Assembly (NCBI RefSeq): GCF_900108505.1
Contig: NZ_FNWU01000001.1
Coordinates: 372,001 to 436,000, forward strand
DNA from: Halopenitus malekzadehii
GTDB lineage: Archaea; Halobacteriota; Halobacteria; Halobacteriales; Haloferacaceae
DNA length: 64,000 bases
Reading direction: 5' to 3'
The position numbers were made by a program, and so were the translations under genes. The notes below the pieces were generated by a model, which made no database searches, was not told where the DNA came from, and saw only the letters and a program-made list of their open reading frames with translations. This document shows, piece after piece, positions 22,963 through 44,354 of the stretch (its first letter is position 1; every line of letters begins with the position of its first letter).

Positions 22963-25470
22963 TCAGTCACGCCGCCGCCCCGCGTGGCCGGGATAGTCCC
23001 GCTCGAACCGGTCGGCGATCTCCCCGTCGTCGAACGCGATGATCACGGGCCGGCCGTGCGGGCACGCGTAGGGGTTCATACAGTCGTCGAGCGCCGCGAG
23101 AAGCTCGACGATCGACCCCTCGGTCAGCGACGTGTTGCCGGTCACGGACGGGTAGCACGCGAGATCCGCGAGCAGCTCGTCGACCACGTCGCTGACGGGC
23201 GCGTCGTCCGCGCTCGTCTCGTCGACGAGCGACCCGAGCACGTCCCGGAGGAGTTCCGGATCGAGCGTCGCGTCGAAGACTGCGGGCACCGCCTTGACGA
23301 CGATCTCCCGATCGCCGGCCCGCTCGGCACGGAACCCGACCTCGTCAAGGTCGCCGAGGAACTCCTTGAACAGCGCCGCCTCCCGGGCGGTCACCTCGAT
23401 CGACACCGGCTCCGCGAGCGCCTGGGCGGGGGCGCCGTCGGCGAACACGTCCTGGAGCCGCTCGTAGTTGACGCGCTCGTCGGCCGCGTGTTGATCGATG
23501 AGTACCAATCCCTCGGGGGACTCCGCGACCACGTACGTCTCCCGATGCTGGCCGAGTATCCGCAGCCGCGGCAGCGAGTCGTAGGCCCGCTCGACGGCGG
23601 TCGTTCCATCGATCGGTCCCGTCTCGCCCGCTTCAGCGGTCGCGGGATTAGTGGCCGCGGGATCAGTGGCCGCAGGATCAGCGGCCGCAGGATCAGCGGC
23701 CGCAGGATCAGCGGCCGTGGGATCAGCGGTCGATCCCGCGGAGCCGTCCCCGGCGCCCGGGAGCGTCCCCTGGTCGGTCGGCGCACGGATCGAGCCCGAA
23801 TCGCGGTCCGTCCTGTCGGGCGTCCCGACCGAATCGGTTCGGTCCGGTTCGGTCGCCCCGGCGTTCGTTTCCGTCTCCGCGGTCGTCTCGCTTTTCGCCG
23901 TGTTCGTCTCGCCCTCGACGTCCCCTGACGCGGCTCCATCCTCGTCCGATTGCCACCGCCTCGGTGACGGCGGGGTCGCGGCGTCAGCGTCGGCGTCGGC
24001 GTCGATTGACGCGTCATCCGTCATCGTTCCGGATTCGGGCCTGGGCGTCGGGTCGGAGTCGCCGAGTCCGGAGACGGACCAGGCGTCTCCGTCCGTCGGG
24101 GAGACCTCGCTCACCCCACCACCGTCCGCACCGTCAGGGTCGTCCGTCGCGTTCGCCTCCGTCGCGTCCGCGCCTCCCGCAGCGTCCGCAACCTGCTCGT
24201 GTCGGGTCCCGGCGCCGCCGACCGCCTCCTCGTCGGCGGACGCGCCCTCGCCCGGTGACACGCTCGTCTCCGCGGGCGCCGATCGACCACGGGGTGCCGT
24301 CGACCGGATCACGCCGTGGTCGAGGAGTGCCGACTCGACCGCCGCCGAGACGGTCTCACGCACCGCCGCCGGCTCGTCGAACCGAATCTCGAGCTTGCGA
24401 GGATGTACGTTCACGTCCACCGTTCCGGCCGGCAGCTCGACGAACAGGACGGCGAAGGGGTACCGATCCGGCGCGAGCTGGCCGCCGTAGGCGTCGACGA
24501 CCGCATTCCGAAGGATGCTCGTGGTCACGTAGCGGTCGTTGACGAACGTCGAGAGATACTCCCGGTTCGCCCGCGTCGTCTCCGGGTGCGAGACGAGCCC
24601 GTGCACGCGCTCGATCGGCGTGCCGGCCAGGGGGGATGAGGATTCTGATTCGCCGGGGTCCGGCGTCTCGTCGTCCACCGTGTACTCGACGGGGATCATC
24701 GACGTCGCGACGTCGCGGCCGTAGACCGCGAGCACCGCGCTCTCGAGGTCGCCGTTTCCCTGGGTGGCGAACGTCTCCCGCCCGTCGTGTTCGAGCGACA
24801 CCGCGACGTCGGGGTTCGCGAGCGCATACTGCGTGACGACCCGGTTGACGTGGTCGAACTCCGTGGCGTTCGTCTTGAGGAACTTCCGTCGGGCCGGCGT
24901 GTTGAAGAACAGATCCGCGACCTCCACGGTCGTTCCGACCGGACAGCCGGCCGGCTGAACCGCGCCGACCTCGCCGCCCTCGACGGTCAGCTCCGCTCCG
25001 GCGTCCGGTGCGACATCGACGTCGGTCCGTCCTCCGTCCCCCTCGTCGCCGCGCACGGAGTCGTGTGCGTCCGGTCGAGGTCGCGACCTGACGGTCAGCC
25101 GGGAGACCGCGCCGATCGTGTACAGCGCCTCGCCCCGGAAGCCGAGCGTTCCCACCCCTGCATCCAGGTCCTCAATGTCGGCGATCTTCGAGGTCGCGTG
25201 TTCGGCGACCGCGTCGGGCAGTTGCGCCGGTGGAATGCCGACACCGTTATCACGCACCCGAATTCGGGAGGTACCCCCATCGGTCACCGACACCGCGATC
25301 CGGTCCGCACCGGCGTCCAGGGCGTTCTCAACGAGTTCCTTGACCACCGACGCCGGCCGTTCGACGACCTCGCCGGCGGCGATCCGCTGTACCGTCCGCT
25401 CGTCGAGGTGTCGGATCGACGACGCGTCGGAGCCGCTCGCGGACCCCGTTCCGGGTTCGCCCTCGTTCAT
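22963..25470 (-). CDS. mutL: DNA mismatch repair protein MutL
   Basis: An 835-residue MutL. The GHKL ATPase motifs are present in order: KELVENALDAGA (about residue 45), DNGVGIP (about 74) and GTLGFRGEAL (about 110). The C-terminal dimerisation/endonuclease domain has IDQHAADERVNYERL, fitting the DQHA(X)2E(X)4E metal motif of MutL endonucleases. The linker (about 380-620) is very long, acidic and disordered, and includes a Pro/Ala/Asp repeat. ATG 25470 (MNEGEPGTGSAS) was chosen; longer starts add a basic leader unlike the family. No mutS is in the window. Paired inverted repeats lie upstream. Confidence 0.95.
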   Translation of the reverse strand: MNEGEPGTGSASGSDASSIRHLDERTVQRIAAGEVVERPASVVKELVENALDAGADRIAVSVTDGGTSRIRVRDNGVGIPPAQLPDAVAEHATSKIADIEDLDAGVGTLGFRGEALYTIGAVSRLTVRSRPRPDAHDSVRGDEGDGGRTDVDVAPDAGAELTVEGGEVGAVQPAGCPVGTTVEVADLFFNTPARRKFLKTNATEFDHVNRVVTQYALANPDVAVSLEHDGRETFATQGNGDLESAVLAVYGRDVATSMIPVEYTVDDETPDPGESESSSPLAGTPIERVHGLVSHPETTRANREYLSTFVNDRYVTTSILRNAVVDAYGGQLAPDRYPFAVLFVELPAGTVDVNVHPRKLEIRFDEPAAVRETVSAAVESALLDHGVIRSTAPRGRSAPAETSVSPGEGASADEEAVGGAGTRHEQVADAAGGADATEANATDDPDGADGGGVSEVSPTDGDAWSVSGLGDSDPTPRPESGTMTDDASIDADADADAATPPSPRRWQSDEDGAASGDVEGETNTAKSETTAETETNAGATEPDRTDSVGTPDRTDRDSGSIRAPTDQGTLPGAGDGSAGSTADPTAADPAAADPAAADPAATDPAATNPATAEAGETGPIDGTTAVERAYDSLPRLRILGQHRETYVVAESPEGLVLIDQHAADERVNYERLQDVFADGAPAQALAEPVSIEVTAREAALFKEFLGDLDEVGFRAERAGDREIVVKAVPAVFDATLDPELLRDVLGSLVDETSADDAPVSDVVDELLADLACYPSVTGNTSLTEGSIVELLAALDDCMNPYACPHGRPVIIAFDDGEIADRFERDYPGHAGRRRD
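23642..23731. repeat. 15-bp in-frame tandem repeat (6 units) in the mutL linker
   Basis: Six 15-bp units of the type GCAGGATCAGCGGCC, 5 codons each, encoding an Ala-Asp-Pro-rich repeat in the disordered linker. Three central units are identical, so copy number could vary without breaking the frame. Confidence 0.92.
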
Positions 25471-26679: not shown

Positions 26680-26739
26680 ACGCCGTCGACCGTGCCCGCC
26701 TCCACACGCCGTCGACCGTGCCCGCCTCCGCACGCCGTC
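26680..26739. repeat. 26-bp tandem repeat (2.3 units) at the end of the pilus operon
   Basis: Units at 26680-26705 and 26706-26731 (ACGCCGTCGACCGTGCCCGC plus six bases) and a partial third, ACGCCGTC, that runs into the stop codon of the last pilus-operon gene (26738-26740). Confidence 0.9.
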
Positions 26740-27337
26740 ACGCCCACGGCGTTGCGACGATCGTCATCGTGGTCCTCGTTCCCGCCCGGCGGATACGGAT
26801 CTCGAACGCGACCGCCACGATCGTCGTCGTTCCCGCACGGTCCTGTACGACGACGCCGCGATCCGCCTCGCAGGCGCCGAAGACGCGGTTCGGGCCGCCC
26901 GGGCACGCCGACTCGGCACGCGACGTTGCGACGGCGGGTGCGACCGTGACGGCGAGTACCGTCCCGTCCTCGAGGGATGCCCCCTCGATCACGTCAAGAT
27001 CGGCGTCGAGGCCGTCGCGGTACGCGGACACCGCCTCGTCGCGGGCGCTCCACTCGTAGGATCCGGCGATGTCGCCCTCCCGGACCGTAACCGTCCGATC
27101 GATCGTCTCGATGACCGACGATCCGGTTCCGCTTTCGGGCCCCGCTCCGCCGGCGGCCCCCGATGTCTCGGTCGTTTCGACGGCCGGTTCGCCGTCGATG
27201 TCGCCCGCATACCCGAGTTGTAGATATGCGAGCGACAGCGGCACGAGCGCCAGCGCGAGCGTCACCGCCGCGAGCAGGACGAGCTGGCCGCGGTCGTGGC
27301 CGCCCGAGCCCGATCGCCCCGTTCGGGGTAGGGTCAT
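26738..27337 (-). CDS. Pilin-like secreted protein of the pilus operon (DUF7261-like)
   Basis: A 199-residue protein with a class III-type N-terminus: a basic start (PRTGRSGSGGHDRGQ), then a hydrophobic helix LVLLAAVTLALALVPLSLAYLQ, trimmed here, starting at residue 19. RGQ-LVLL resembles the prepilin-peptidase site in haloarchaeal pilins, so it may be processed and placed in or near the pilus. The rest is a beta-rich domain with two cysteines (ESACPGG and FGACEADRG). It is the last gene of the operon; its ATG overlaps the stop of the Arg-rich small ORF (ATGA). Confidence 0.78.
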   Translation of the reverse strand: MTLPRTGRSGSGGHDRGQLVLLAAVTLALALVPLSLAYLQLGYAGDIDGEPAVETTETSGAAGGAGPESGTGSSVIETIDRTVTVREGDIAGSYEWSARDEAVSAYRDGLDADLDVIEGASLEDGTVLAVTVAPAVATSRAESACPGGPNRVFGACEADRGVVVQDRAGTTTIVAVAFEIRIRRAGTRTTMTIVATPWA

Positions 27338-27495
27338 CGCTCACCCCCGTCACCGTGTCGCGGATCCGGCGATCGCCGTTCGTTTCGCCTCACCGCGAGC
27401 CGTCCCGAACGTCTCACCGCGAGCCGTCTTGGGCGTCTCACCGCGAGCCGTCTTGGGCGTCTCACCGCGAGCCGTTCGCCGCGGTGACGCCTCAT
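27334..27495 (-). CDS. Candidate 53-residue Arg-rich repeat microprotein in the pilus operon
   Basis: An open frame of 53 codons fills what would otherwise be the only gap in the operon. Its ATG overlaps the stop of the upstream gene (ATGA at 27492-27495) and its TGA overlaps the next ATG (ATGA at 27334-27337), so both junctions look translationally coupled. The product begins MRRHRGERLAVRRPRR, repeats RRLAVRRP-type 8-residue units from a 24-bp tandem repeat, and ends HGDGGER. It is extremely basic (about 20 Arg) in a proteome that is mostly acidic. No known family. It could bind RNA or acidic partners, or be a chance frame. Seen in the sequence; expression is inference. Confidence 0.5.
   Translation of the reverse strand: MRRHRGERLAVRRPRRLAVRRPRRLAVRRSGRLAVRRNERRSPDPRHGDGGER
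27389..27484. repeat. 24-bp tandem repeat (4 units) between two pilus genes
   Basis: Units at 27389, 27413, 27437 and 27461, each CTCACCGCGAGCCGTC plus eight bases; the middle two are identical. 24 bp is 8 codons, so expansion keeps the frame of the Arg-rich ORF on the minus strand. Confidence 0.95.
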
Positions 27496-27968
27496 CGCCA
27501 CACCGCCACGACGATCCGGCCGTTCCGGGTGGTCATCGCCGACCGGCCGACGGTGGCGTCAGGCGGCGGCGCGATCCCGATGTCTCCGTGTGGCGTTTCC
27601 ACGTGGTACTGGAGCCGATCGGGAACGAGCGCCTCGGCGCGAGCGTCGATCGCGTCGCGCTCGGCCGCGAACGTCTCCGCGGTCACGATCGCCGCGGGAA
27701 GCGGTCGCCCGGCCGCGGTCTCGTCGTCGAATCCCGCGCTCCCCTCGTTCGCGAGCACCGTCGCGACGTCGGTGGCCGAGGCATCGAGGTCCGCGGTGGC
27801 CACGCCGGGATCCGCGGGCGCGACCGCGAACGAAGTCGCGATCGCCAGCACGAACGTCACGCCGATCGCCGCCTCGATGGCCGACAGCGAGAGTTGACCG
27901 CGCGTCCCCGGTCGACCGGCATCGAGGACCACGGTGGGATCGCTCCCGCCCCGTTCGCAGCTACGCAT
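27492..27968 (-). CDS. Pilin-like secreted protein of the pilus operon (DUF7262-like)
   Basis: A 158-residue protein with a charged N-terminus (MRSCERGGSDP) and a TRGQLSLSAIEAAIGVTFVL segment (about residues 22-41): a basic residue-Gly-Gln and a membrane helix, as in class III signal peptides. The exported part has an Asp/Ala-rich helix and a beta-rich end (RNGRIVVAVWR). Likely a minor pilin or pilus accessory protein held in the membrane. It overlaps the upstream gene by 8 nt and the Arg-rich small ORF by 4 nt. Confidence 0.75.
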   Translation of the reverse strand: MRSCERGGSDPTVVLDAGRPGTRGQLSLSAIEAAIGVTFVLAIATSFAVAPADPGVATADLDASATDVATVLANEGSAGFDDETAAGRPLPAAIVTAETFAAERDAIDARAEALVPDRLQYHVETPHGDIGIAPPPDATVGRSAMTTRNGRIVVAVWR

Positions 27969-28716
27969 CGACGGTCACCGTGATGACGACCGGCGTCCGT
28001 CGTTCCCGTTCGACCCGCAGTCCGACCACGCCGGTCCCCTCGAGGACGAGCCGGTCGGTGCCCTGCCGCGGCAGGTCGATCGTCGTCGATCCCCGGATCC
28101 CGTTCGGGCGATACAGCACCACCCGGTCGTCGACCCGAACCGTGGTGACGTTCCCCGAGCGGGCTTCGACCGTGAGGCGTCGCGCGGTCGCGGGCAGCGC
28201 TCGTTCCGCCTCCGGATCGACGGTGATCCGATCGGTTCGGGTTTCCGAGCGTGCAAGCAGCGCGATCCGGCTCGCGGTCGTCCCTCCACGGACCGACCCC
28301 CGTTCCAGGATCGTCCGGTCCTCGACCGTCCAGTCCTCGATCGCGTCGCCGGCGAGGCGGACCCGGATCGCTCGGTCACGAACCGCCGGAACGGCGTCCT
28401 CGATCGCCGTGATCGAGAGCGCCAGCGTTGCGTCCCGGTCGAGCACGGTCCGGCGCCGCGTCGTCGGCCCCTCCGGATCGACGAGGATGTCGGCGACCGT
28501 GACCGCCAGCCCCCGGCTCGCGACGTCGCGTTCCGCGGCGGTTCGGGCGTCGTCGGCGATCGTGACGGCGAGGACGGTCGCCGACGCCAGGATCACGATC
28601 GCGACGGCGAGCGCCGGCAACGCCGCCTGTGCACGGCTTCGAGATCGAGAATGATCCCCCCGTCCAGTCCCCCGGTTCGGTGCCCCGGCTATCGGCGTCG
28701 TCGATCGCCGGGTCAT
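27961..28716 (-). CDS. Pilin-like secreted protein of the pilus operon (DUF7263-like)
   Basis: A 251-residue protein. A long basic leader (residues 1-29) precedes the helix RAQAALPALAVAIVILASA (about 28-46), resembling a class III signal with RAQ in place of RGQ. The rest is a beta-rich extracellular-type domain ending ERRTPVVITVTVDA. No catalytic motif is seen. It overlaps its neighbours by 4 nt (28713-28716) and 8 nt, fitting tight co-translation in the pilus operon. Confidence 0.75.
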   Translation of the reverse strand: MTRRSTTPIAGAPNRGTGRGDHSRSRSRAQAALPALAVAIVILASATVLAVTIADDARTAAERDVASRGLAVTVADILVDPEGPTTRRRTVLDRDATLALSITAIEDAVPAVRDRAIRVRLAGDAIEDWTVEDRTILERGSVRGGTTASRIALLARSETRTDRITVDPEAERALPATARRLTVEARSGNVTTVRVDDRVVLYRPNGIRGSTTIDLPRQGTDRLVLEGTGVVGLRVERERRTPVVITVTVDA

Positions 28717-29222
28717 CGGTTCATCAGCTCCACGGTCAACCCCTCCTCATCCCGCTGGACGACGACGATCGTCCGCGCGTCGCTTCGCCAGGTGCTCGGT
28801 GTCCCTGACGGTTGCGTCGGGAACGCAAGCCGTCGTCGTCCGTCGACGGCCGAGTGTGGATGTTCGAGCGTGAGCACGCCGTCCGCAAACCTGACCCGGT
28901 ACGACTCGCCCCGGATCGTCTCCGGAAGGTCGACCGTCGTCCGCGTCGTCGCCGATCGGACCGTCGGCGTCCGTGGTGCCGGTGGAACCGCCGACGTGAC
29001 CGCGTGGTCGGCCGCGGTCAGCGTTCGGTCGCCGACCTCCTCGGCGACCGCCGACCGGTACTCCGGGACGACGCCCCCGTAAAGGGCCGTCGACAGCGTT
29101 GCGACGAACAGCACGACGACGCCGACCTCGAGGAGTTTGCCCGCGACCGGCGCCACGGCGCGGGAGTGGATCGGTCTCGATCCGCCCCTCATCTCGGCCC
29201 TGATCGGCGGATCACGTCCCAT
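28713..29222 (-). CDS. Pilin-like secreted protein of the pilus operon (DUF7266-like)
   Basis: A 169-residue protein with SRAVAPVAGKLLEVGVVVLF starting at about residue 20: a small basic leader and a membrane helix (KLLEVGVVVLFVATLSTALYG), then a short exported domain (TVRSATTRTTVDLPETIRG). It resembles the small pilin-like members of haloarchaeal pilB/pilC operons. It overlaps the upstream gene by 11 nt and the downstream one by 4 nt (ATGA). A start a few codons later (MRGGSRPIHSRAV) is also possible. Confidence 0.73.
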   Translation of the reverse strand: MGRDPPIRAEMRGGSRPIHSRAVAPVAGKLLEVGVVVLFVATLSTALYGGVVPEYRSAVAEEVGDRTLTAADHAVTSAVPPAPRTPTVRSATTRTTVDLPETIRGESYRVRFADGVLTLEHPHSAVDGRRRLAFPTQPSGTPSTWRSDARTIVVVQRDEEGLTVELMNR

Positions 29223-29988
29223 ACGCCACCTCCAGTTCCAGGTCCACGGTGCGGACGAGCAGGTGTCCCTCCCGATCGCCCCCGACGGTCACGACGACGC
29301 TTTCGCGGTTGTCGCCGGCGAACTGCCGCCGGTCGATCGACAGGATGGGTTCCGATTCGGGCTCAGTGGTGGCTGCTCGGTCACCGGTCCGTCGAACCGC
29401 CCGCTCGACCGCGGTCGGGTTCGCCGTCTCGATGGCGATCCGAAACGGGCCCGTTCCCAGGTCCCGTTCGTCGTGGTCGACCGCCAGTCGGAGGCGGGCA
29501 ACGCCGCCGGACTCACCGGAACCGCCCGCCCCGACCGCTCCGCCACCTTGGATAACGGGGATCGTGATCACGAGTGCATCCTCCCCGATGAGCAACGCCG
29601 GATCCCGAACCGCGATCGCGCCGTCGCCGTATTCACGGATGACGAGCCCGGCGACGCTCACCACGCGCTGATCGCCGCCGCTTCCCACGTACCGTATTCC
29701 GTCGGCCTCCAGGGACCGCCACTCGTCGCCGTCGTGTACTCGAACCGTCCGTTCGATCGTGTCGAGTCGGCCGCCGGATAGGCGGACCGACGCGGTCGTC
29801 CGCCCGTCACGGCCGGTTCCATCGATCGCCGCGGTCAGGTCGTCGGTCGCCGCCTCGACGCCGATCGTTCCCGCGTGCTCCTGGACGACGACGCCCGTGC
29901 CCGCGGTGATCAGTCCGAGGCTCGTGACCGTCATCGCGATGAGGAGCGTCACCCCGATGACAGTCGATTGGGCGCGAGCGCGGCTCAC
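29212..29988 (-). CDS. Pilin-like secreted protein of the pilus operon (DUF7289-like)
   Basis: A 258-residue protein. GTG 29988 overlaps the pilC stop (GTGA) and gives MSRARAQSTVIGVTLLIAM, a class III-type leader with an RAQ-ST junction followed by a membrane helix. The exported portion is beta-rich with a Gly-rich loop (IQGGGAVGAGGSGESGG) and ends VELEVAYGT-like strands. The longer frame to 30276 lies inside pilC and is not credible. It is the first pilin-like gene after pilC and a candidate for the major or a large minor subunit. Confidence 0.78.
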   Translation of the reverse strand: MSRARAQSTVIGVTLLIAMTVTSLGLITAGTGVVVQEHAGTIGVEAATDDLTAAIDGTGRDGRTTASVRLSGGRLDTIERTVRVHDGDEWRSLEADGIRYVGSGGDQRVVSVAGLVIREYGDGAIAVRDPALLIGEDALVITIPVIQGGGAVGAGGSGESGGVARLRLAVDHDERDLGTGPFRIAIETANPTAVERAVRRTGDRAATTEPESEPILSIDRRQFAGDNRESVVVTVGGDREGHLLVRTVDLELEVAYGT

Positions 29989-32054
29989 AGCAATCCGACC
30001 CCCGCGAAGACGACGTAACAGACGCCCACGAGGACGCCGGAGTGCAACAGCGCCTCGTACCAGCCGCGTGAGGCGGCTCCCGCGAACCAGCCCGATGCGA
30101 GCATCGTCGCCTGCAACACGACGTAAAACCGGTATCGCTCGCGTTCGGGATCGATCGTCCCCGGGTCGAACCGCATCGCCGACGACCCGGAGACGGCCGA
30201 CAGCTGGGCGAACCCGTCGATGACGTAGAGGTTGACCGCGACGACGATCCCGATGACCAGAAGCGCCGCCGTCCACCCGACCGCGACGTACACGAGCATT
30301 GCCGAGCGGAGCGCCCGCTTCTGGTGGTAGAGGCGCCCGATTTCGGTTTGAAGCGTCTCGAAGACGGTCTGGGTGTCGCTGCCGGCATCGAGCGCCCCAG
30401 TCACGAGCCCGACCGTCTGTTCTGCAAGCGGCGTTCCCACGTTCTCGACGAACCGGTTCAGCGCCGCCGTCCGGACGGTCCCACGATCGGGCTCGTGTTC
30501 ATCGGGGTCATCACCACCATCCCCGTCCGCCGTTCCTTCGAGGACGTTCCGTGCGGATCGTTGGTTCCCGGTCGTCAACGAGAGGTTGAACGCCAGGTCC
30601 GCGACGTCGGCGTCGAGCGCGCCGAGATCGACGTCACGCGCGACGAGCGCGACCGCTTCCGGAAACGGACGGCCAAGCGAGACGTGTCCGGAGACAGCGT
30701 GGACGAAGTCCTTGATCTCGCGATCCTTCGCGTCGTCGAGCCGAGCCCGCCGAACGGATACGACGCCCGTGGGAACCGCGAAGGCGACGTAGCCGAGGGT
30801 TGCGACGTTCACCGGGTCGGCGCCGGCGTTCGCGAGGACGGTGCCTGCGCCGATGGCGGGTATCGCGGCGACGACCGCCGTCGCTCGCGGATTGACGGTC
30901 ACGCTCCGGAGGACCGTGATCGGATCGGCCGGCAGCTCGTAGGCCGTCCGCTGGTCGGGCGGTCGAAGGTGTTCGACGATCGTCGCCGAGACGGCGCCCA
31001 CGACCAGAATGAACGCCGCGCTCCCGTAGACGATCGCCGCGCGTGTCGTCACCGTCACGACCGGCGTGTGAATCGGGTCGGAGAGCCCGGGGGCGATCAC
31101 GCCGATCACGGTCAACACGATGACGAGCAGCGCCGGCAACACCAACAGAACGATGAACAGCTCCGAGAGGAGCTCCAGGAACCCCTCCGCCCGTTTGCGG
31201 GCCCGATCTTCTCGATGTCCGAGCATTCGTCCCTCCATCGCGAGGTAGTTCGAGAGGGCATCCTCACCCTGGTTGGCGTGCTCGCGAAACTTGATCAGGA
31301 AGGGTGCAAGGAGGTCACTCGAGGGCGTATCCCGCGCGACGCGGCCGAGCGCCTGATCGAGGCTTCCGGTCAACCGTGCGCTGTTGAGCGCGGCCCGAAA
31401 GGCGACCGCCGTCTCACCGTACGCCTCGTTGGCGGCGGTCTTGCGGATCATCCCGCGTGCCGTGTCGCTGCCCGACGAGAGCGCGTGGAGATACCGAACT
31501 GCGCCGGGGAGCGTCCGCTCGATGTCCGTTCGCCGAGCGCTCGCGACCCACCCCAGGTACGTGCCGCCACCGCGAACGACGCCCCGCTTGACCGCCGCGC
31601 CGACGCCGATCGCTGCCACAAGCGCCACCCATTCCGGCGGCAGTCGAGCCAGACCGATCCCGTCGATCGGGAGTCCCGAGGCGAGCGCGGCGTCCACCCG
31701 TTCCAATACTGCCGGGGAGAGCTGACGCCCGATCACCACGACCGGCAGCGCCACGATCAGGCCGGCCACCCACGAGAGGCCGTAGATCCTGGCCAGCAGG
31801 ACGTCGAACCCGGTCCGTATCGCCGTCGCCCGATACCGGTCCCGGTCGCGGACGTGTCGTTCCGCGTCGGCGTGGCGGGCGAACAGTGCGTGAAGGCCGC
31901 GGTCGATCCCATGGTCGATCGCCGAGGACCGCGACCCGGTTTCGCCCCCGGATCGATGGCGGTGAGCCTCGGTTTGCCGATCGGTGGTCCGTGTTCCCGC
32001 GTTCGGCTTCGATTCGGCCCCGATGGTCGCCCCGGTCGAGACGCCGTCGCTCAT
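29985..32054 (-). CDS. pilC: Type IV pilus platform protein PilC (TadC/T2SF family)
   Basis: A 689-residue polytopic membrane protein with two T2SF domains. The first cytoplasmic module has RTDIERTLPGAVRYLHALSS (about residues 172-191) and LGRVARDTPSSDLLAPFLI; helices such as LSELFIVLLVLPALLVIVLT (about 290-310) follow; a second module has FVHAVSGHVSLGRPFPEAV (about 457-475). It is the inner-membrane platform for pilus assembly. It overlaps pilB by 4 nt (ATGA) and the next gene by 4 nt. The N-terminal ~65 residues are a charged, disordered extension. Confidence 0.92.
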   Translation of the reverse strand: MSDGVSTGATIGAESKPNAGTRTTDRQTEAHRHRSGGETGSRSSAIDHGIDRGLHALFARHADAERHVRDRDRYRATAIRTGFDVLLARIYGLSWVAGLIVALPVVVIGRQLSPAVLERVDAALASGLPIDGIGLARLPPEWVALVAAIGVGAAVKRGVVRGGGTYLGWVASARRTDIERTLPGAVRYLHALSSGSDTARGMIRKTAANEAYGETAVAFRAALNSARLTGSLDQALGRVARDTPSSDLLAPFLIKFREHANQGEDALSNYLAMEGRMLGHREDRARKRAEGFLELLSELFIVLLVLPALLVIVLTVIGVIAPGLSDPIHTPVVTVTTRAAIVYGSAAFILVVGAVSATIVEHLRPPDQRTAYELPADPITVLRSVTVNPRATAVVAAIPAIGAGTVLANAGADPVNVATLGYVAFAVPTGVVSVRRARLDDAKDREIKDFVHAVSGHVSLGRPFPEAVALVARDVDLGALDADVADLAFNLSLTTGNQRSARNVLEGTADGDGGDDPDEHEPDRGTVRTAALNRFVENVGTPLAEQTVGLVTGALDAGSDTQTVFETLQTEIGRLYHQKRALRSAMLVYVAVGWTAALLVIGIVVAVNLYVIDGFAQLSAVSGSSAMRFDPGTIDPERERYRFYVVLQATMLASGWFAGAASRGWYEALLHSGVLVGVCYVVFAGVGLL

Positions 32055-34417
32055 TCGGCCGCCTCGTCGGGAACGATGCCCGTCGATCGCAGCGCCCGTT
32101 CGACCGTCGCGGCCTCGTCGGTTCGAAGGTCCGAGAGGAACTCGAAGAGCGTCTCGAAGTCGTCGATCCCCTCCTCGGCCAGATAGCGGACGTATCGATG
32201 TTTCCTGTGGAACTCGGCCTCGACGTCAACGACGTCACGGTCCGTCCGTTCGGCAAGTCGGTGAAACAGTCCGAAGCCGATCGATCCGTCGGTGGCGATC
32301 CCGCGGTCGGATGCGCCGACCGGGACGGCGCCGTCGTTGCGATCCCCCGCAAGCGACGGGTGGTCGTACTCGATGGTGAACGTGCCGTCGGTGTCGCGCC
32401 ATACGACCGTGTTCCAGTGGACCGTCGTTCCGTCCTTGCGTATCGTACCGCCGCCACCTCGCCGTCGAACCCCGCCCGCGCCCCGGAGCGCGGCGTCGTC
32501 GAGCGCCTCGAACTCGTCGTCGGAGAGAATCTCGACCACGTGGGCGACGTACCGCTCGCCGCGCGTCTTGTGGGGGAACACGACCAGATCGAGCTCCCGA
32601 AGCAGGTAGGCCGGCAACCCCTGCTCGATCACGCGGTTGACCAGGGTTTCGACGTCCTCCGCGTGTGTCGTCCCCAATACCCCATGGCCGGTGTTCAACG
32701 TCTCTGCAAACGTTTCGAAGGACGCCGGCGTGTTGATCTCCGCGATGACCTCGACGTCGGGGTTCAAATAGTTCGTTTCGGTCATCAACTCGGCCATCGT
32801 TACCCGCTTGTACTCGTTCTCGTGGTCGCGAGTCGTCAGCGAGACGCCTGTCTCGTGCGGGAGATGGACCTCGCGTGACCCCTCGTCGATCGAGATCGGC
32901 CGATCGTCAAACGGGATGAACGGCATATGGGCGTTCATAAGCGTCGTTTTCCCGACCCCGGTCGGCCCGGAGAACAACACGACGCCGTGGTACTCATAGA
33001 GCAGCCACAACACCGTCACCAACTCCGTCGAGAGCGCATCCCGTTCGAGCAGGTCGACCGGCGTCATCGCGTCCGCCGACTGCTTCCGGATCGAGACGTG
33101 GGGGCCACCCTCGGAGATCACCGGGAGCGCGACCGCACACCTGATGGTCTCCTCGACGCCGTCGATGTCGAGGTTCACCTTTGCCGAGGGCCGCGACGCG
33201 TTGAGCTCCGTCCCGTCGCGTGCGGCCAGCTGGGTCACCACGTTGACGAACTCCCGCTCCGTCGTAAACGACAGGTTCGTCGGGACGCGGTCGCCAGCAC
33301 CCCTCGCGTCGTCGAAGACGATCGTCCGCGGAACCACCTTGATCCGCTCGTCGACTCGGTTGGCCTCGATGTCCTCCAGGTTCGGATCGCGTATCGGCAC
33401 CGTCAGGATGCCCTCGCCGACGTAATCACGCAACACGTAGTACACGAGGTCGTCGAGCCGATCGCGCGCGTACCGTGAATCGATCGGCGGCACGGCGAGC
33501 CCGTAGGACGCGAGCGTCGATCGAACCCGATGACGCGTCGCCTCGAGCCAGGCACGCGTATTGTGCGCCAGTAACCGCCGGGTGAGGAATCGCCGCGCCC
33601 GATCGGCGACGAACGACTCCCGGTCGGTCACGACGCGGTCGACGTTGGCCTCCCAAATGCGGGATTTACACTCCTCTATCAGGGCATCATCGCCCGGAAG
33701 CAGATCCGGTTCCAGCACCGCGTATTTCGTCTCGAACTGATCGGACCCCAACAGCCGTTCGCGGTAGACGACGACGTCGACGTCGAACCCCGCGAACGGG
33801 ACCGAATACCGGTGCAGCCGTTCGCCGGCCACGCGGTCGACGTACGGTTCGTCCACGGAGACGCCGGTCGTGACCGGCGCGAACGAGTCGGTATGCACGA
33901 CGAGTTCGTCGGTGTCCCCCACGTCGGCGACCTCGATCCGGGGATCGACCGCGAGCGGCGTGAGATCTCCAAGCAGTCGAAGGTCGTTCAACGCGTGGTG
34001 ATCGATCCGCCGCCGAGCCGCGGGCGTGGTCTCGAGCAGTCGGTCGATCGCCCGCGCGTATTTCGGTTCGAACCCGCGCGTTGCTCGCTCGAGCACACCC
34101 TGTCGGGTGAGCGGTCGTCGATGACGGGCCGCCGAGAAGTGGTCCCGGACCGTTGCCAACGCGGCCTCGTCAGTCGGGGAAAGCGGCGGACCGCGACTCT
34201 CGTAGACGAACCCATCGTCGCGTTCGTGTATCGTGGTAACGATCCCCGATACCGGTTCGTACTGTGCACGGACCGTCGACGCGTACCACGCATCCGGGTC
34301 GTCGGGCGGGCACGGTGCTGGGATCGGTTCAACGGGCCACGACGGCGCTCCCTCGGGTTCGGCGTCGTCATCCGTAGTTTCGTGTCGTTCCGCCTCCATC
34401 GTCGACTCCGCACTCAC
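32051..34417 (-). CDS. pilB: Type IV pilus assembly ATPase PilB
   Basis: A 788-residue secretion ATPase that powers pilus assembly. Walker A SGPTGVGKTTLMN lies near residue 480; DDRPISIDEGSREVHLP is the Asp-box region; LNPDVEVIAEINTPAS is Walker B; GHGVLGTTHAED is the His box. The N-terminal ~450 residues match the large domain of haloarchaeal PilB proteins; about 120 residues at the C-terminus are helical. GTG 34417 was chosen because a strong TATA-like element (34448-34460) lies about 31-43 nt upstream. It heads the pilus operon and overlaps pilC by 4 nt. Confidence 0.94.
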   Translation of the reverse strand: MSAESTMEAERHETTDDDAEPEGAPSWPVEPIPAPCPPDDPDAWYASTVRAQYEPVSGIVTTIHERDDGFVYESRGPPLSPTDEAALATVRDHFSAARHRRPLTRQGVLERATRGFEPKYARAIDRLLETTPAARRRIDHHALNDLRLLGDLTPLAVDPRIEVADVGDTDELVVHTDSFAPVTTGVSVDEPYVDRVAGERLHRYSVPFAGFDVDVVVYRERLLGSDQFETKYAVLEPDLLPGDDALIEECKSRIWEANVDRVVTDRESFVADRARRFLTRRLLAHNTRAWLEATRHRVRSTLASYGLAVPPIDSRYARDRLDDLVYYVLRDYVGEGILTVPIRDPNLEDIEANRVDERIKVVPRTIVFDDARGAGDRVPTNLSFTTEREFVNVVTQLAARDGTELNASRPSAKVNLDIDGVEETIRCAVALPVISEGGPHVSIRKQSADAMTPVDLLERDALSTELVTVLWLLYEYHGVVLFSGPTGVGKTTLMNAHMPFIPFDDRPISIDEGSREVHLPHETGVSLTTRDHENEYKRVTMAELMTETNYLNPDVEVIAEINTPASFETFAETLNTGHGVLGTTHAEDVETLVNRVIEQGLPAYLLRELDLVVFPHKTRGERYVAHVVEILSDDEFEALDDAALRGAGGVRRRGGGGTIRKDGTTVHWNTVVWRDTDGTFTIEYDHPSLAGDRNDGAVPVGASDRGIATDGSIGFGLFHRLAERTDRDVVDVEAEFHRKHRYVRYLAEEGIDDFETLFEFLSDLRTDEAATVERALRSTGIVPDEAAE

Positions 34418-44264: not shown

Positions 44265-44268
44265 CGAT

Positions 44269-44354
44269 CGTCCACGGCGACTGCCGACGCCGACCGTCCA
44301 CGGCGACTGCCGACGCCGACCGTCCACGGCGACTGCCGACGCCGACCGTCCACG
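44269..44354. repeat. 26-bp tandem repeat (3.3 units) just after the PadR gene
   Basis: Three identical units at 44269, 44295 and 44321 (CGTCCACGGCGACTGCCGAC plus GCCGAC) and a partial fourth. Perfect identity points to recent slippage. It sits between the PadR stop (44262-44264) and the convergent RnhA-linked gene. Confidence 0.95.

Follow-up and report, generated by a model that had tools for sequence, protein, structure and literature searches.

A repeat-containing, Arg-rich open reading frame in a pilus operon of Halopenitus malekzadehii: a putative displaced DUF7261 leader and possible coupling bridge

In the window analysed, a 64,000-nt stretch of the 3.14-Mb Halopenitus malekzadehii genome (G000, a draft assembly of 41 contigs), a 53-codon Arg-rich ORF lay between the last two genes of a pilus operon. 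Comparison with relatives indicates that it is probably a DUF7261 leader that was expanded by a repeat and displaced (or duplicated); any role it has is probably that of a bridge in translational coupling, and it was not supported as an independent conserved gene. The operon, on the minus strand, comprised pilB (T2SSE), pilC (T2SSF), DUF7289, DUF7266, DUF7263, DUF7262, and DUF7261 as assigned by Pfam, with the ORF located between DUF7262 and DUF7261. The features are the following.

27961–34417, minus strand: upstream part of the operon, pilB to DUF7263 (consecutive overlaps, Pfam)
27492–27968, minus strand: DUF7262 pilin-like gene, the upstream cistron, with its stop inside the first ATGA (Pfam PF23923, E 4.4e-41)
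27492–27498, minus strand: GCGATGA at the first junction, orthologous to the overlap of DUF7262 with DUF7261 in relatives (sequence, junction comparison)
27334–27495, minus strand: 53-codon Arg-rich ORF, putative displaced repeat-expanded DUF7261 leader and possible coupling bridge (ORF scan, leader comparison)
27380–27475, minus strand: four 24-bp units with the core ACGGCTCGCGGTGAG common to all, coding R-L-A-V-R-R plus variable residues (sequence)
27341–27348, minus strand: GGGGGTGA, resembling a Shine-Dalgarno sequence and separated from the ATG of DUF7261 by 3 nt (sequence)
27334–27340, minus strand: second junction, GCGATGA, ORF stop/DUF7261 start, a 7-bp direct repeat of the first junction
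26738–27337, minus strand: DUF7261 pilin-like gene, start ATG 27337 (MTLPRTGRSGSGGHDRG/QLVLLAAV..) (Pfam PF23922, E 3.5e-55; alignment A1)

The ORF, read from 27495 to 27334, encoded MRRHRGERLAVRRPRRLAVRRPRRLAVRRSGRLAVRRNERRSPDPRHGDGGER*, a peptide of 53 aa with 21 Arg residues and a net charge of +16. The frame and its ATGA at each end, as described in the sequence-only reading, were exact in the sequence: stop/start overlaps of 4 nt were present at both ends (ATGA at 27495–27492 and 27337–27334), the ATG of the ORF overlapping the stop of DUF7262 (27498–27492) and its TGA overlapping the start of DUF7261 (27340–27334), and the overlaps listed there for the other gene pairs of the operon (4, 4, 11, 4, and 8 nt) were also correct. 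The in-frame 24-bp tandem repeat was confirmed, with four units starting at 27475, 27451, 27427, and 27403, which were identical in their first 15 nt (4 of 4) and varied in their tails; TRF placed the array at 27375–27478 (period 24, 4.3 copies, score 117). A dispersed element was rejected, the array unit being found nowhere else in the H. malekzadehii genome, as was the idea that a degenerate further repeat fills the stretch from the array to the second start, the similarity being not significant. GGTGA occurred 6 times in the ORF versus 0.28 expected, an excess for which the repeat unit is mostly responsible. That the product would be very basic was borne out, a net charge of at least +16 being reached by 2.9% of composition-matched sequences and thus moderately unusual; this character is accounted for because DUF7261 leaders, 3–38 residues long in the family with 22% Arg, are Arg-rich. 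Neither a strong RNA structure (z = -1.38 versus shuffles, 15 of 200 shuffles folding equally well) nor a programmed -1 frameshift at GGGGGT was retained; in the latter case a -1 slip meets TGA 27343–27341 at once and the frames are unjoinable.

The congeneric comparison covered three genomes, those of H. malekzadehii, H. persicus (G002; L039/L044), and one other congener (G001). In H. persicus, the ATGA ending DUF7262 starts DUF7261 itself (MRRRDGRLAVRRGGRD-RG/QLVL, MRRRDGRLAVRRGGRDRGQ, MRRRDGRLAVRRGGRDRGQLVLLAAV), and the leader contained one RLAVRR unit within the basic segment before the predicted prepilin-peptidase site. The same ATGA in H. malekzadehii starts the ORF (MRRHRGERLAVRRPRRLAVRRP...), which has four tandem copies in the same frame. 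The two are thus alike in the ATGA start, the frame, and the GRLAVRR unit, but a single unit is fused in frame to the gene in H. persicus (L044), whereas H. malekzadehii has four units together with a stop and a second start. DNA alignment of the two species was unbroken to GGTGAGACGC and picked up at GACCGCGGCCAG (D-R-G-Q). Among all collected DUF7261 leaders, that of H. persicus was the top match to the ORF at both the protein level (score 46 versus 31 for the next) and the DNA level (local score 31 versus 26), and none of 2000 shuffles matched it as well. With its best leader match in H. persicus, the ORF starts out as a DUF7261 leader and keeps the frame of that leader.

DUF7261 of H. malekzadehii was intact in alignment A1 and must start at ATG 27337, because TGA 27343–27341, which is included in GGGGGTGA, shuts its frame upstream. 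This second start is 158 nt downstream of the first ATGA, and DUF7261 has its own basic leader there. No in-frame continuity existed between the ORF, with its stop at 27334–27336, and the body of DUF7261, and because this body is in the -1 frame the ORF is regarded as a displaced rather than a working leader. Class III signals have G or A at -1, a charged residue at -2, and a hydrophobic stretch next (PMC4371748). DUF7261 possessed a basic N-terminus, a charged residue followed by G, and then a hydrophobic stretch (RG/QLVLLAAVTLALALVP), with RGQ invariant in alignment A1, and its leader is predicted to be cleaved by the prepilin peptidase (PibD) at RG/Q; a class III-like motif, RG/QLSL, was also observed in DUF7262. 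The likeness of DUF7261 to archaeal class III (type IV prepilin) signals thus lies in the basic N-segment and the R-G/Q-LVLLAAV hydrophobic stretch, but here the expanded basic segment forms an ORF apart, closed by a stop of its own, and would not be attached to the pilin-like protein. The present DUF7261 leader (ATGACCCTACCCCGAACG...) best matched the DUF7261 start of G001 (GTGACCCGAACCGGAACG...), with 24 of 1035 null leader pairs as good, a resemblance that offers modest support. Identity of DUF7261 was 79% between the two congeners and 67–69% to H. malekzadehii, which suggests that the congeners are sisters; if so, both leader elements may date to the genus ancestor.

The proposed origin is that the 5′ leader-coding segment of DUF7261 gained a 24-bp array (RLAVRR+2) in H. 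malekzadehii and would then have been split from the gene body, either because the array expanded out of frame or because the GCGATGA junction was duplicated, with DUF7261 restarting at the second ATGA with its own basic leader; the order of these steps is tentative. Such a change would be tolerated because the leaders, which are short and variable with many Arg residues, are predicted to be cut off at RG/Q. Ribosomes ending DUF7262 would reinitiate on the ORF and in this way reach the DUF7261 start. PMC6728339 reports that 4-nt overlaps couple genes by termination-reinitiation in Haloferax volcanii and that, in H. volcanii and E. coli, strict translational coupling was found in 13 of 14 overlapping pairs tested, and PMC10666635 reports that a gap of 22–23 nt brings reinitiation in H. 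volcanii near zero. The contribution of the Shine-Dalgarno (SD) sequence to reinitiation in this species is variable. Because gaps of 22–23 nt abolish reinitiation there (PMC10666635), the 150-nt gap in H. malekzadehii would break coupling unless translated, and, by analogy, an open and correctly phased ORF could act as a translational bridge regardless of its peptide. The arrangement resembles the ATGA-coupled pairs of H. volcanii in having 4-nt ATGA overlaps on both sides within a haloarchaeal operon and an SD-like sequence before the second start, but what lies in the middle here is a repeat ORF specific to the lineage, not a conserved gene. In the available parts of PMC6728339 and PMC10666635, no example of an ORF of this kind spanning a gap was found. 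If the bridge is true, a coupled operon can survive a stop/start insertion provided that the insert stays open and ends in another ATGA; this would be a route for small ORFs to arise without selection on the peptide, and it advises caution in microprotein hunting in GC-rich archaea.

Loci containing DUF7262 and DUF7261 were gathered from whole genomes and named GTDB contigs, giving 114 distinct junctions including that of H. malekzadehii. An exact 4-nt overlap (ATGA/GTGA) was present at 104 of the 113 other haloarchaeal junctions, and longer overlaps occurred at seven (8 nt in two, 13 nt in one, and 19 nt, with an in-frame ATG, in four). The four with 19 nt were L051, L072, L082, and L088, one of them a Natronomonas. 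No start could be located close to the junction at L056, and at L090 (Halomicrobium katesii) an opposite-strand gene was inserted between the two genes (2308–2814). In L065 (Halorussus amylolyticus), which falls outside the distance filter and so is not among the 114 junctions, a gene of 264 codons was inserted (1973–2767); by eye it was hydrolase-like. These whole-gene insertions indicate that the junction tolerates insertions and that coupling there is dispensable. An ORF like that of H. malekzadehii was absent from the 113 other junctions, including those of both congeners. The comparison of this interval that the sequence-only reading had proposed, in search of a conserved open frame, found that the ATGA of relatives starts DUF7261 itself, with no such ORF.

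Less probable, though still credible, is that the ORF is neutral debris, that is, an insert made by slippage at the junction, open by chance and without a role, with DUF7261 starting independently. Tandem arrays (score at least 80) were abundant in the genus, with 11 per 100 kb in H. malekzadehii and 27 per 100 kb in G001, as counted in samples of 464 kb and 400 kb, respectively; about two thirds had periods divisible by three, and a 24-bp array that keeps frame is therefore nothing unusual in Halopenitus. Arrays of 24 bp numbered nine in the 464 kb of H. malekzadehii and were also common in a congener. For a composition-matched insert, the chance of being open (0.55) multiplied by that of being in phase (1/3) was about 0.18; because of this value and the frequency of 24-bp arrays, being in frame and being open are weak signals, and bridging may not be selected, phase and openness together being roughly a one-in-five coincidence. 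Codon use of the ORF was poor as well: its CAI-like value, 0.364, was the lowest of its three frames and lay below the minimum of 0.408 across 53-codon windows of neighbouring genes (0.65–0.70 for the whole genes), GC3 was 0.63 versus 0.81–0.87 for whole genes, and AGA accounted for 5 of the 21 Arg codons versus 1 of 336 in nine neighbouring genes. The insertions tolerated in L065 and L090 fit debris too, as does the strong SD-like GGGGGTGA preceding ATG 27337, which could aid DUF7261 starts of either kind, by reinitiation or independent. However, the second ATGA with its exact 4-nt overlap fits coupling, in an operon whose gene pairs all overlap, and gaps abolish coupling in Haloferax (PMC10666635). 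If neutral, the ORF would illustrate clearly how a repeat in a leader region can mimic a coupled microprotein gene.

A more specific form of the bridge is rather doubtful: a relay cistron, born from the repeat-expanded leader and kept only to carry ribosomes across the gap between the coupled pilus genes, in which the repeat number, changing in 8-codon steps with one SD-like GGTGA each, would set the output of the downstream pilin-like gene.

A functional Arg-rich microprotein, binding for example nucleic acid or acidic partners, is highly improbable. The rarity of its charge among composition-matched sequences and the coupling of both start and stop are in its favour, but the ORF was confined to one genome, 169 family genomes had no homologue of the peptide at this locus, and matches elsewhere were low-complexity Arg-rich stretches, many with stops. 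The peptide had no match in Pfam, its Arg-richness is inherited from the leader, and the poor codon use also counts against it. The suggestion of a microprotein gene that had been overlooked at a fixed, coupled position finds no support in the 113 junctions or in codon use. The gene body that had been called expandable did undergo repeat expansion, but of a leader expected to be removed by the prepilin peptidase, and among the roles guessed at, a slippage-made spacer and coupling come close to the best reading.

There is likewise very little to recommend a sequencing or assembly error that split one frame with a very long basic DUF7261 leader, even with a draft assembly, error-prone repeats, and a unit sharing one frame with DUF7261 in H. 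persicus, for the two frames close at 27343–27341 (DUF7261) and 27336–27334 (ORF), which would confine a single missing base to the few nt between, a stretch outside the array and not a homopolymer.

Additional repeats were observed. A 26-bp tandem repeat (26680–26739, 2.3 copies, 97% match) adjoins the DUF7261 stop downstream, and the spacing from DUF7261 to the regulator was about 150 nt in H. malekzadehii versus about 60–75 nt in the two congeners; thus, expansion in H. malekzadehii has affected DUF7261 on both sides. A search of the available literature on tandem repeats of Halopenitus found nothing. In G001 (L202–L221), array density was about 2.5 times that of H. malekzadehii, and one array (L213, 17978–18270) had 12 copies of a 24-bp unit. 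Elsewhere in the window, a 15-bp array of 6.5 copies (23633–23729) in a mutL-like gene encoded, in the linker region, a repeat of Asp, Pro, and Ala (AADPAAADPAA..), and a 26-bp array of 3.5 copies with 98% match, its period not divisible by three, was located at 44265–44354.
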